Below, in pieces: positions 2,440 to 5,520 of a stretch of DNA of 64,000 nt. Numbering within the stretch: the stretch's first letter is position 1; each line of letters begins with the position of its first letter. A program made the position numbers and the translations under genes. The notes beneath the pieces are model-generated. The model was not told the origin of the DNA, ran no database searches, and was given only the letters and a program-made list of their open reading frames with translations. The stretch comes from Rhodoferax ferrireducens T118 (GTDB lineage Bacteria; Pseudomonadota; Gammaproteobacteria; Burkholderiales; Burkholderiaceae_C): contig NC_007908.1 in assembly GCF_000013605.1 (NCBI RefSeq), positions 372,001 to 436,000 on the forward strand, read 5' to 3'.

Positions 2440-2453
2440 CTGATTTGGATCAA
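2440..2453 (+). promoter_or_regulatory. FNR/ANR-type box upstream of nrdD
   Basis: The sequence CTGAT-TTGG-ATCAA matches the FNR consensus TTGAT-N4-ATCAA at 9 of 10 defined positions. It lies 105 bases upstream of the nrdD start, which fits oxygen-controlled expression of an oxygen-sensitive reductase. A -35-like TTGACA follows at 2474-2479, but no convincing -10 was seen at the standard spacing. Confidence 0.55.
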
Positions 2454-2557: not shown

Positions 2558-4585
2558 ATGAGCGCAACAAAGCCACCCGTTTTCAGCCACATCATCAAAC
2601 GCGACGGTGGCATCAAGCCGTTTGACGGCGCCAAAATAGCCCACGCCCTGGCACGCGCCGCCCAGGTCAGCGGTGAGTTTGACGATACCGAGGCGCAGCG
2701 ACTGACCCACTACCTGGTGCTTCCAAAAATCAAGGTACACGGTCAAGTCACCCCGCACATTGAGCAGATTCAGGACGCGGTCGAATCTGCCCTGTTTGAC
2801 GCCGGTTACCCCAAGACGCTGCGCGCCTACATCGTTTATCGCGAGCAGCACCACAAATTGCGCAGCGATCGCAAAACCCTGGTTGATGTCGAGTCGAGCA
2901 TGAACGAGTACCTGCAGCAGTTGGACTGGCGCGTCAACGCCAATGCCAACCAGGGCTACTCGCTCGGTGGACTGATCCTCAACGTCTCGGGCAAGGTCAT
3001 TGCCAATTACTGGCTCAATCACGTCTACCCGCCCGAAGTCGGCGCCGCGCACCGCAGTGCGGCGATCCACATTCACGACCTGGACATGCTCGCCGGTTAT
3101 TGTGCGGGCTGGTCGCTGCGCACGCTGCTGCATGAAGGCCTGAATGGCGTGCCGGGCAAGGTCGAATCGGGGCCCCCGAAGCACCTGTCGAGCGCGGTCG
3201 GACAGATCGTCAACTTCCTGGGCACGCTGCAAAATGAGTGGGCCGGGGCGCAAGCCTTCAGTTCCTTCGACACCTACATGGCACCTTACGTCCGGCAGGA
3301 CAAACTGAGCTACGACGAGGTCCGCCAGAGCCTGCAAGAGCTGATCTACAACCTCAATGTGCCCTCGCGCTGGGGCACGCAAACGCCTTTTACCAACCTG
3401 ACCTTTGACTGGGTCTGTCCGCAAGACTTGCGCGAGCAAATTCCCGTGATTGCGGGAAAGGAGATGGCGTTCAGCTACGGTGAACTGCAGCCTGAGATGG
3501 ACATGATCAACCGTGCCTACATTGAAATCATGATGGCCGGGGATGCCAAGGGGAGGGTGTTTACCTTCCCGATTCCGACCTACAACATCACCGAAGACTT
3601 TGACTGGTACAGCACCAATGCGGAGCTGCTGTTCGAAATGACCGCCAAATACGGTTTGCCCTACTTCCAGAATTTCATCAATTCGGAACTCAAGCCCAAC
3701 ATGATCCGCTCCATGTGCTGTCGCCTGCAGCTGGACCTGCGCGAGCTGCTCAAGCGCGGCAACGGCCTGTTCGGCTCGGCCGAGCAGACCGGCTCGCTCG
3801 GCGTGGTCACGATCAACTGCGCGCGCTTGGGGTATCTGCACCGCGGCGACGAAGCGGCCATGCTGGCGGCGCTTGACGCCCTGCTGGAACTCGGCCGCGA
3901 CAGCCTGGAGATCAAGCGCAAGGTGATCCAGCGCCACATGGACAACGGCCTGTTCCCCTACACCAAGCGCTACCTGGGCACGCTGCGCAACCACTTCTCC
4001 ACGCTGGGGGTGAACGGTATCAACGAGATGATCCGCAACTTCACGCAGGACAAGTACGACATCAGCGGCGAGTGGGGTCACGCTTTTGCGGTGCGCCTGC
4101 TCGACCATGTGCGCGCCCGCATGCTCGAATTCCAGGACCAGACCGGCCACATGTACAACCTGGAGGCGACACCGGCCGAAGGCACGACCTACCGCTTTGC
4201 CAAGGAAGACGCCAAACAGTTCCCGGACATCCTGCAGGCGGGCACCAAGGACATGCCCTACTACACCAACTCCAGCCAACTGCCGGTGGGCTTTACCGAC
4301 GATCCGTTTGAGGCGCTGGAACTGCAGGACGATCTGCAGCGCAAGTACACCGGCGGCACCGTCTTGCACCTGTACATGACCGAGCCCCTGAGCAGCGCCG
4401 AGGCCTGCCGCCAACTGGTCAAGCGTTCGCTGTCGCGTTTTCACCTGCCCTACATCACCGTGACGCCCACCTTTTCGATCTGCCCGAAACATGGCTACCT
4501 GGGCGGACGGCATGACTTTTGCCCCAAATGCGACGCCGACCTCATTTCGCGCAAACAACTCGAAACCAATACCCAAGGAGACTGA
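2558..4585 (+). CDS. nrdD: Anaerobic (class III) ribonucleoside-triphosphate reductase, large part lacking the glycyl-radical domain
   Basis: Reduces ribonucleotides to deoxyribonucleotides without oxygen. An ATP-cone is visible at residues ~15-100. Candidate catalytic cysteines lie in YCAGWSLRTLLHEG and MCCRLQLDLREL. A C-terminal metal-binding knot follows (CPKHGYL then FCPKC). Normally the chain continues into a glycyl-radical loop RVxGY, but here it stops at TGA 4583-4585 just after the knot, and the radical loop is encoded by the next ORF in another frame. The start is placed at ATG 2558 because AAAGGGAACAAG precedes it at good spacing; a GTG at 2540 is in frame but lies inside the NrdR box. 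It forms an operon with the two following genes. Confidence 0.93.
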   Translation: MSATKPPVFSHIIKRDGGIKPFDGAKIAHALARAAQVSGEFDDTEAQRLTHYLVLPKIKVHGQVTPHIEQIQDAVESALFDAGYPKTLRAYIVYREQHHKLRSDRKTLVDVESSMNEYLQQLDWRVNANANQGYSLGGLILNVSGKVIANYWLNHVYPPEVGAAHRSAAIHIHDLDMLAGYCAGWSLRTLLHEGLNGVPGKVESGPPKHLSSAVGQIVNFLGTLQNEWAGAQAFSSFDTYMAPYVRQDKLSYDEVRQSLQELIYNLNVPSRWGTQTPFTNLTFDWVCPQDLREQIPVIAGKEMAFSYGELQPEMDMINRAYIEIMMAGDAKGRVFTFPIPTYNITEDFDWYSTNAELLFEMTAKYGLPYFQNFINSELKPNMIRSMCCRLQLDLRELLKRGNGLFGSAEQTGSLGVVTINCARLGYLHRGDEAAMLAALDALLELGRDSLEIKRKVIQRHMDNGLFPYTKRYLGTLRNHFSTLGVNGINEMIRNFTQDKYDISGEWGHAFAVRLLDHVRARMLEFQDQTGHMYNLEATPAEGTTYRFAKEDAKQFPDILQAGTKDMPYYTNSSQLPVGFTDDPFEALELQDDLQRKYTGGTVLHLYMTEPLSSAEACRQLVKRSLSRFHLPYITVTPTFSICPKHGYLGGRHDFCPKCDADLISRKQLETNTQGD

Positions 4586-4586
4586 C

Positions 4587-4790
4587 ATGACCGATCTAAG
4601 CGAACAACAATTGCTGACCCCCCAAGCTGTCGTACTGCGCGACGACGAACGCCAGCGCTGCGAGGTGTGGACCCGCGTGATGGGCTACCACCGCCCCATG
4701 TCGTCCTTCAACACCGGCAAAAAAGGCGAGTTCCATGAGCGCACTTACTTTGACGAGCGCTGCTGCAGCCCGAGTCAGCCCGACGCCTGA
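4587..4790 (+). CDS. Separately encoded NrdD glycyl-radical domain (67 aa)
   Basis: The protein contains CEVWTRVMGYHRP, a match to the RVxGY glycyl-radical loop that normally ends NrdD, followed by a tail conserved in such proteins (SSFNTGKKGE). It starts one base after the nrdD stop, in a different frame. Its own strong ribosome binding site (AAGGAG 4574-4579, 7-nt spacer) lies in the last nrdD codons, so it reads as a true gene and not a casual frameshift. Its 3' end overlaps the start of nrdG by 56 bases. By inference it is the radical-bearing subunit that joins the large NrdD chain, with NrdG making the radical. I am not certain how widespread this split is. Confidence 0.8.
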   Translation: MTDLSEQQLLTPQAVVLRDDERQRCEVWTRVMGYHRPMSSFNTGKKGEFHERTYFDERCCSPSQPDA

Positions 4791-5520
4791 TCGGGTCGAT
4801 GCGTTGGCGGCCGGCGCGCCAGCGCTCACCCTCAAAGTAGGCGGCATCACACCGTTCAGCGCTACCGACTATCCCGGCAAACTCGCCGCCGTGGTATTTG
4901 TCCAAGGTTGCCCGTGGCGCTGCGGCTACTGCCACAACCCGCATCTGCAGCCACGCACCGGCAGCAGCCTGGTGTCATGGAGCGCCGTGCTTGCCTTATT
5001 GAAGCGGCGTGTCGGGCTGATTGATGCCGTCGTCTTCAGCGGTGGCGAGCCGACCATGGACCCCGGTCTGCTTGATGCCATGCGTGCGGTGCGCTCACTC
5101 GGTTTTGGCGTTGGCCTGCATAGCGCCGGCATGTACCCGCGGCGTTTGGCCGAGGTGCTGGAGTTGGTGGATTGGGTCGGCCTGGATGTCAAGTCATCAT
5201 GGCCGGGCTACGACGCCATCACCGGCATCGCTGACAGCGCTCGCCAGGCCCGCGCTAGCGCACAGCTCGTGCTGGCCAGCGGCATCGCGCACGAATTTCG
5301 CACCACGGTGCATCCCGCGCTGCACACCGAAGCCGACATCCTGGCGCTGGCGAAAACCTTGCAGGCCATGGGCGTGCGCCACTATGTGCTGCAGGTATTT
5401 CGCGCGACCGGCTGTGGCGATGCCCGACTCAATGCCGGGTCCACCCTGGGTTACCCCGGCGCTGAGCTGCTGGCCCAGGTGGCGGCCCTGTTTGACAGCT
5501 TTACCTTGCGCCAAGTCTGA
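4735..5520 (+). CDS. nrdG: Anaerobic ribonucleotide reductase activating protein (radical SAM)
   Basis: Radical S-adenosylmethionine enzyme that installs the glycyl radical on the NrdD system. The CX3CX2C iron-sulfur motif is at residues ~60-67 (GCPWRCGYCHNP). FSGGEPTMDP follows, a typical SAM-binding GGEP motif. At 261 aa it resembles the longer NrdG-like activases. The chosen ATG 4735 has GGCGAG upstream and overlaps the preceding small gene by 56 bases, which suggests translational coupling. Last gene of the nrd operon. Confidence 0.9.
   Translation: MSALTLTSAAAARVSPTPDRVDALAAGAPALTLKVGGITPFSATDYPGKLAAVVFVQGCPWRCGYCHNPHLQPRTGSSLVSWSAVLALLKRRVGLIDAVVFSGGEPTMDPGLLDAMRAVRSLGFGVGLHSAGMYPRRLAEVLELVDWVGLDVKSSWPGYDAITGIADSARQARASAQLVLASGIAHEFRTTVHPALHTEADILALAKTLQAMGVRHYVLQVFRATGCGDARLNAGSTLGYPGAELLAQVAALFDSFTLRQV

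Follow-up and report, generated by a model that had tools for sequence, protein, structure and literature searches.

The window analysed here is a stretch of 64,000 nucleotides (nt) from Rhodoferax ferrireducens T118 (contig NC_007908.1, positions 372,001 to 436,000, forward strand), and the system in question is its nrdD operon for the anaerobic, class III ribonucleotide reductase. We propose, with a probability of about 0.87, that this operon encodes a class III enzyme in which a core (NrdD, residues 1-675) and a 67-amino-acid (aa) glycyl-radical subunit associate non-covalently, and which is activated by NrdG. A two-subunit enzyme is well supported by sequence comparison, and we read both subunits as obligatory. 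In the class III cycle, NrdG and S-adenosylmethionine (SAM) abstract a hydrogen from a glycine, the glycyl radical oxidises a cysteine of the finger loop, and a thiyl radical starts the reduction of nucleoside triphosphates. In the textbook enzyme, the glycine that stores the radical belongs to the catalytic chain itself, whereas the window type consists of a core and a radical subunit.

Gene layout and domain content of the operon

The following features were identified in the window.

2440..2453, + strand: FNR/ANR-like box CTGATTTGGATCAA, 118 nt 5' of nrdD, one mismatch to TTGAT-N4-ATCAA
2558..4585, + strand: nrdD core subunit gene, 675 aa, with ATP-cone, 10-stranded barrel and zinc knot, without glycyl loop
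3713..3724, + strand: MCCR finger-loop motif, residues 386-389, double-cysteine type, predicted site of the radical-accepting cysteine
4481..4531, + strand: zinc-knot ligands C642, H645, C655 and C658, at the core end
4575..4580, + strand: AAGGAG ribosome-binding site of the glycyl open reading frame (ORF), within the final nrdD codons, 6 nt 5' of its ATG
4587..4790, + strand: free-standing glycyl-radical subunit ORF, 67 aa
4674..4688, + strand: RVMGY loop, with the predicted radical glycine Gly33 at codon 4683-4685
4735..5520, + strand: nrdG radical-SAM activase, 261 aa

The nrdD gene runs from an ATG at 2558 to a TGA at 4583-4585, and the ATG of the glycyl ORF at 4587 follows after a single nucleotide in another frame (offset 2029, which is 1 modulo 3); the junction is TGA-C-ATG. 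A sequence-only reading of this DNA had described an nrdD that ends just past its metal knot, the RVMGY loop on a separate 67-aa gene in another frame with its own AAGGAG, and nrdG as the next gene. Each of these points was confirmed. The core continues for 17 residues beyond the last zinc ligand (C658 of 675), the loop lies in the ORF at 4587-4790, the AAGGAG at 4575-4580 agrees with the Shine-Dalgarno statistics over 81 glycyl starts given below, and nrdG, recognised by its NrdG2 profile, has its ATG inside the small ORF, the two genes sharing 56 nt.

The core matched NF006126 (1130.8 bits), positions 2-528 of the 562 positions of PF13597 and, with residues 11-99, the ATP-cone PF03477. The small ORF matched PF13597 positions 531-562 of 562 (E 8.3e-8); DUF5069 stayed below the cut-off and PF01228 was not matched. 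Since these two ranges are complementary, the two ORFs tile one NrdD, and the small ORF proved to be the free-standing glycyl-radical domain of a class III ribonucleotide reductase that had been claimed. The glycyl-radical loop was absent from the core polypeptide, which stops at PF13597 position 528. The product of nrdG was of the NrdG2 type (TIGR02495, 205.9 bits; cut-off 131.15).

Among the features of class III membership, the NRDD catalytic barrel in the core, the finger-loop motif (MCCR or MGCR), the C-terminal zinc site and a nearby NrdG activase were found, whereas a glycyl-radical loop in the same polypeptide was not. M386-R389 (MCCR) and all four zinc ligands were invariant among 46 aligned rows, and Gly33 of the small protein among 14. 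By comparison with solved NrdDs, a metal is probably bound at the C642/H645/C655/C658 site. MCCR belongs to the double-cysteine finger-loop class with methionine, following the motif classes of PMC9669993. The whole genome contained one NrdD core and one glycyl ORF, the sole other match of the core search being the ATP-cone of another protein, and PF01228 was matched nowhere in it.

Conservation, distribution and evolution of the split

The nearest relatives of the locus were taken as the best 80 of at least 587 pattern-matching stretches in a scan of GTDB genomes, giving 81 loci with the window. A separate glycyl ORF was found in 80/80 of them, including loci from Rhodoferax, Janthinobacterium, Duganella, Thiobacillus, Sulfuricella, Chromatiaceae, Sutterella and others (masking covers the final core residues of L071, and the glycyl ORF of L075 is cut off by the contig end). 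Across the 81 loci, the glycyl frame relative to the core was the same in 30, +1 in 22 and +2 in 29, and the distance from core stop to glycyl start ranged from -41 to 376 nt (median 25). A Shine-Dalgarno match of at least 5 nt preceded 75 of the 81 glycyl starts, compared with 33 of 1411 internal core ATGs, although the best of several candidate ATGs was taken per locus, which favours the former figure. Against 8 relatives, the ratio of non-synonymous to synonymous substitution rates (dN/dS) was 0.03-0.27 for glycyl codons 1-49 and 0.045-0.135 for the core; the small ORF is under purifying selection. Proteins of similar length that match it at E <= 0.001 numbered 4037 (best 120 listed).

A programmed frameshift or stop read-through that fuses both ORFs into one NrdD was considered. 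The junction AAGGAG-ACTGAC-ATG, with its 1-nt gap, resembles the TGAC with upstream AAGGAG of the release-factor-2 gene and is shared by the window, L012 and L013. Such a junction was present in merely 3/81 loci, however; the others show gaps of up to 376 nt, all three frames and at least one stop between the ORFs, and in some genomes the glycyl gene lies on a different contig. On this variety of junctions the explanation was rejected as very improbable. A sequencing error or decayed gene, for which nothing specific speaks apart from one possibly decayed case elsewhere (G1116, see below), is negligible given the 80/80 split relatives, the dN/dS well below 1 and the conserved ribosome-binding sites, as the sequence-only reading had held; rather than a continuous NrdD in close relatives, a split one was found at every nearest locus. 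No intron, intein or homing-endonuclease sequence was found at the window junction, to which this check was confined, with 1 nt between the ORFs; the gaps in relatives are mostly short.

For wider samples, genomes were classed as split or fused by reading profile-match tables, and 13 ambiguous same-frame cases were translated to set them apart from long-linker fusions; a stop codon lay between core and glycyl ORF in 13/13. The comparison of nrdD loci across the order, which had been suggested as a check, gave 128 matching genomes out of 399, namely 104 with a truncated core, 22 with fused NrdD only, one with a core fragment and one with a glycyl ORF only. In the phylum sample, PF13597 was matched in 66/397 genomes, comprising 17 splits of the window type, 46 fused forms, one fragment, and two genomes in which an in-frame TAG interrupts another NrdD type. 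In the class of G415, 29/289 genomes matched (20 truncated, 8 fused, one of another type). In the Pseudomonas-like family of G428, 37/99 matched, with 36 truncated cores, one contig-edge fragment and no fused form, and the small-protein matches bear Pseudomonas and Stutzerimonas names.

The split was also present in Cupriavidus necator H16 (pHG1), Sulfuricurvum kujiense (with a 4-nt overlap) and Shinella zoogloeoides, in all of which the NCBI annotation gives each of the two pieces the name of the reductase; the small gene of C. necator H16 is H16_RS32675. No description of a split cellular NrdD was found in the literature searched, most subscription papers being beyond the reach of the search. 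The split is visible in database annotation, yet absent from the papers found.

Other interrupted forms were observed as well. In L144, L122 and L184 (G297, G363), an in-frame TAG interrupts a distant NrdD type after the zinc knot and before the glycyl loop, representing either an independent split or a recoded stop. L141 and L243 (G238, G927) carry a same-frame split with TAA codons between the parts and an unusual loop, CE(V/I)FSRSMGF.

A tree was built from 70 of 109 core rows, leaving out 5 outgroup rows, one duplicate and 33 hand-thinned rows. It required five changes of label, read as one fused-to-split change followed by four re-fusions, and the starred branches force at least four changes. 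The root was placed on the fused L093, L143 and L153, which are themselves long branches, so that the direction of change is likely, not certain. An earlier tree that took E. coli-type NrdDs, very distant at a branch length of 10, as its outgroup was set aside, as its root was distrusted. One split and four later re-fusions are thus the likely history. The re-fused NrdDs are nested among split ones: L142 with L202, L125 (an Acidiphilium plasmid), L124 (an Actinomyces oris plasmid), and L154, L155 and L157 of f122. They have a short stretch from the last zinc-knot cysteine to the CE(V/I)WTRVMGY block (e.g. CPICSQSCEIWTRVMGY), compared with about 17 residues of core tail plus about 24 residues of small-protein arm at the same place in split pairs, which indicates that the cut falls in a linker.

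Unlinked, extra and phage-borne glycyl genes

The 399 genomes of the order sample were also searched with A1, an alignment of stand-alone glycyl proteins, and the resulting sets were compared; some match rows in this search count an internal stop, which was taken as the ORF end. A free glycyl ORF was found in 104/104 truncated-core genomes and, among the other 295, solely in G557. G043 has its glycyl ORF, together with nrdG, some 9.5 kb away from the core. In G474 and G993, the glycyl ORF is on another contig than the core, with nrdG beside it, and in G868 and G1015 it is likewise on another contig. For genomes with such unlinked genes, a product made only in cis is excluded. On the Allochromatium vinosum plasmid pALVIN01, a glycyl gene (L147:3016-3225) was observed with no NrdD core across the whole plasmid.

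Extra glycyl ORFs were present in 8/104 truncated-core genomes (two in G645, and in G787, G726, G572, G636, G493, G706 and G518) versus 0/294 others (Fisher p 1.8e-5, uncorrected for kinship and with G557 left out). They were also found in G841, G1002 and G857. Because glycyl genes occur far from nrdD and in extra copies, the glycyl subunit should work in trans.

Scans of IMG/VR with A1 and with the window protein yielded 259 stretches (best 80 kept) and 65 stretches, respectively, which combined to 109 distinct loci (L246-L354), several of them on near-copy contigs. By tblastn, an NrdD core was absent from the examined flank in 107 of these and present in two; at least 2.5 kb of flank was available on both sides in 52 of the 107. 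Examples of the lone viral ORF are L327:6001-6123, L303:6001-6135 and L252:6001-6129, and a small number of the ORFs appear degenerate (L320, L353). All ten small proteins scanned, including that of the window, matched phrog_4132, a phage family of unknown function. Head, tail or packaging genes were identified near seven of nine viral loci scanned (L252, L257, L258, L280, L303, L327 and, weakly, L301), with none at L268 and L275. In six of the 107 lone viral ORFs (L260, L322, L330, L331, L336, L351), an upstream Cys/His-rich stretch, CxH...C..G...P..C..C..Y, was observed that ends 16 residues before the glycyl loop and may be a zinc knot belonging to these proteins.

In three prophages, the glycyl ORF lies between genes for an endolysin and an Rz-like spanin (L358:2460-2624 in G636, L360:5760-5918 in G706 and L361:5680-5835 in G518), which by gene order places it inside a predicted lysis cassette. 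The extra copy L229 of G841 is flanked by a serine recombinase on one side and an M15 endolysin on the other. No phage genes appeared at the other extra bacterial copies, most of whose neighbours were outside the scan. Cultured phages are poor in such genes: with the window protein as query, 50,697 records gave a single match, a fused NrdD. A split in the phage record MT835493 (L153) was considered and rejected because its translation shows a fused protein.

The proposed two-part enzyme and its possible roles

In the proposed enzyme, docking of the small subunit would insert the RVMGY loop into the barrel, next to the cysteine of the finger loop, and NrdG would place the radical on Gly33. Core and small subunit would act together in trans, and the truncated core would be inactive without its partner. 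A single-chain AlphaFold2 model of the core and the small ORF (mean pLDDT, the per-residue confidence score, 74; pTM, the predicted template-modelling score, 0.71) was compared with the four T4 NrdD chains 1h78, 1h7b, 1h79 and 1hk8 and with 1h7a. A constant C-terminal offset of 129 was obtained, and residue 709 of the model, equivalent to Gly33, falls on T4 position 580, the T4 radical glycine according to a title cited in PMC3019208. The predicted placement of the loop as in T4 NrdD is a matter of consistency, not proof.

Several points weigh against an obligate two-subunit enzyme. The two chains of the model were linked manually, the T4 structure is known to the fold program, and the glycyl part was modelled with only moderate confidence, at a pLDDT of about 49-61 over residues 681-730 except for one block at 85. 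The re-fusions mean that a separate subunit is not needed for function. The fragmented genome G557 has a glycyl ORF and nrdG with no core match, and the roughly 3 kb around the glycyl gene of G868 showed no nrdG. In G1116 (L373), of the Pseudomonas-like family, the glycyl match has an internal TAG, maybe a decayed copy or an assembly fault.

The core and small ORF of the window together share with the fused NrdDs of E. coli, phage T4, Prevotella copri and Thermotoga maritima an end-to-end PF13597 match, the MCCR loop, the zinc knot and an adjacent NrdG, and differ from them in that the glycyl loop sits on a separate polypeptide. The sequence-only reading had likened the small gene to GrcA (YfiD), the spare glycyl-radical part of pyruvate formate-lyase. 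Like GrcA/YfiD and T4 Y06I, it encodes a small separate glycyl-loop protein of which phage-borne copies exist, and the idea of a detachable radical part stands. Membership in GrcA was rejected: the domain is of the NrdD type (PF13597 C-terminus), PF01228 is lacking in the small ORF and the genome, and the small gene sits in the operon of its own enzyme. GrcA, of the PF01228 type, backs up an enzyme with its own glycyl domain, whereas the sole NrdD core here is truncated and has no loop; for this reason the small protein is not GrcA.

The class II NrdJa/NrdJb of Pseudomonas aeruginosa, called the sole split ribonucleotide reductase found in a non-viral organism in PMC4520616, is likewise encoded by two genes of a single operon, with the division in its C-terminal part. 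Unlike the window enzyme, NrdJab is B12-dependent, and NrdJb serves disulfide exchange, not radical storage (PMC4520616). An NrdJab identity was rejected, as the core is NRDD and only its ATP-cone matches class I/II models. Phage nrdD genes are also found in pieces, with introns, inteins or breaks of unexplained origin in the coding sequence (PMC3653736); these interruptions are individual ones of single phages, whereas the window type is one conserved junction spread over Pseudomonadota with no intron or intein.

Regarding why the split is kept, one explanation is that a small subunit cut at its glycine by oxygen could be exchanged without remaking the core, as GrcA is for pyruvate formate-lyase. 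Oxygen cleaves pyruvate formate-lyase, YfiD or T4 Y06I rescue it, and spare parts for other glycyl-radical enzymes have been speculated on (PMC8683613). The extra glycyl ORFs confined to truncated-core genomes in the order sample, those of G841, G1002 and G857, and the lone copies on viral contigs make this explanation more interesting and more likely. In 96/104 genomes, by contrast, the gene is single and in the operon of its core, and four lineages have re-fused. Subunit exchange after oxygen damage is plausible, and as the reason for the split we place it somewhat below even odds.

Less likely, and in our view doubtful, is that the split chiefly eases activation or regulation, with a free subunit reaching NrdG without a domain swing, or with dATP controlling its docking. 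In Prevotella copri NrdD, dATP at the ATP-cone disorders the glycyl domain (PMC11226230), and the window core retains its ATP-cone. Fused enzymes perform the same job, however, and alignment of the fused L124, L125, L142 and L202 with the core begins only at about residue 101-105, which leaves a connection of the split with the ATP-cone unproven.

Extending the exchange explanation, the glycyl subunit may be an exchangeable, mobile radical part, and copies made by genomes, phages (phrog_4132) and plasmids might dock on the split enzyme of the host, sustaining or raising the supply of deoxynucleoside triphosphates when infection is anaerobic or when the cell has briefly met oxygen; T4 Y06I plays such a part for pyruvate formate-lyase. 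We advance this tentatively, at somewhat below even odds.

The operon may be under FNR/ANR-type control. A box with one mismatch to TTGAT-N4-ATCAA, which we take to be the FNR/ANR consensus, was found within 260 nt upstream in 23/78 loci, the window included, versus 1.7% of random 260-nt stretches. Boxes with at most two mismatches were found in 44/78 loci versus about 12% of random stretches, and 34/78 loci had no such box.

The physiological weight of the system can be gauged from studied relatives. In C. necator H16, nrdDG is reported to be essential for complete denitrification, with B12 rescuing its loss (PMC2864759, citing Siedow 1999), and the nrdDG of that locus is split by the sequence analysis presented here. 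In C. metallidurans, nrdD and nrdG are Rmet_5137 and Rmet_5139, so numbered that one gene has room between them (PMC2864759). For P. aeruginosa, known here from papers, not from sequence, a strain deleted for nrdD grows much less without oxygen, and a cloned nrdDG served for complementation (PMC4860495); and PA1920 is a 76-kDa protein (PMC12284477). A 2015 review lists the class III radical store as 'Glycine in enzyme' (PMC4390871).

The split has a consequence for annotation, as results from cloning or knocking out only 'nrdD' in these organisms would be misread. It proposes a function for a phage family now labelled as unknown (phrog_4132). If the two-part enzyme is as proposed, it would be a natural system, present in laboratory organisms such as Cupriavidus necator, in which a protein radical could be loaded, cut and swapped apart from the active site, and would offer a direct route to ask whether exchange repairs oxygen damage.
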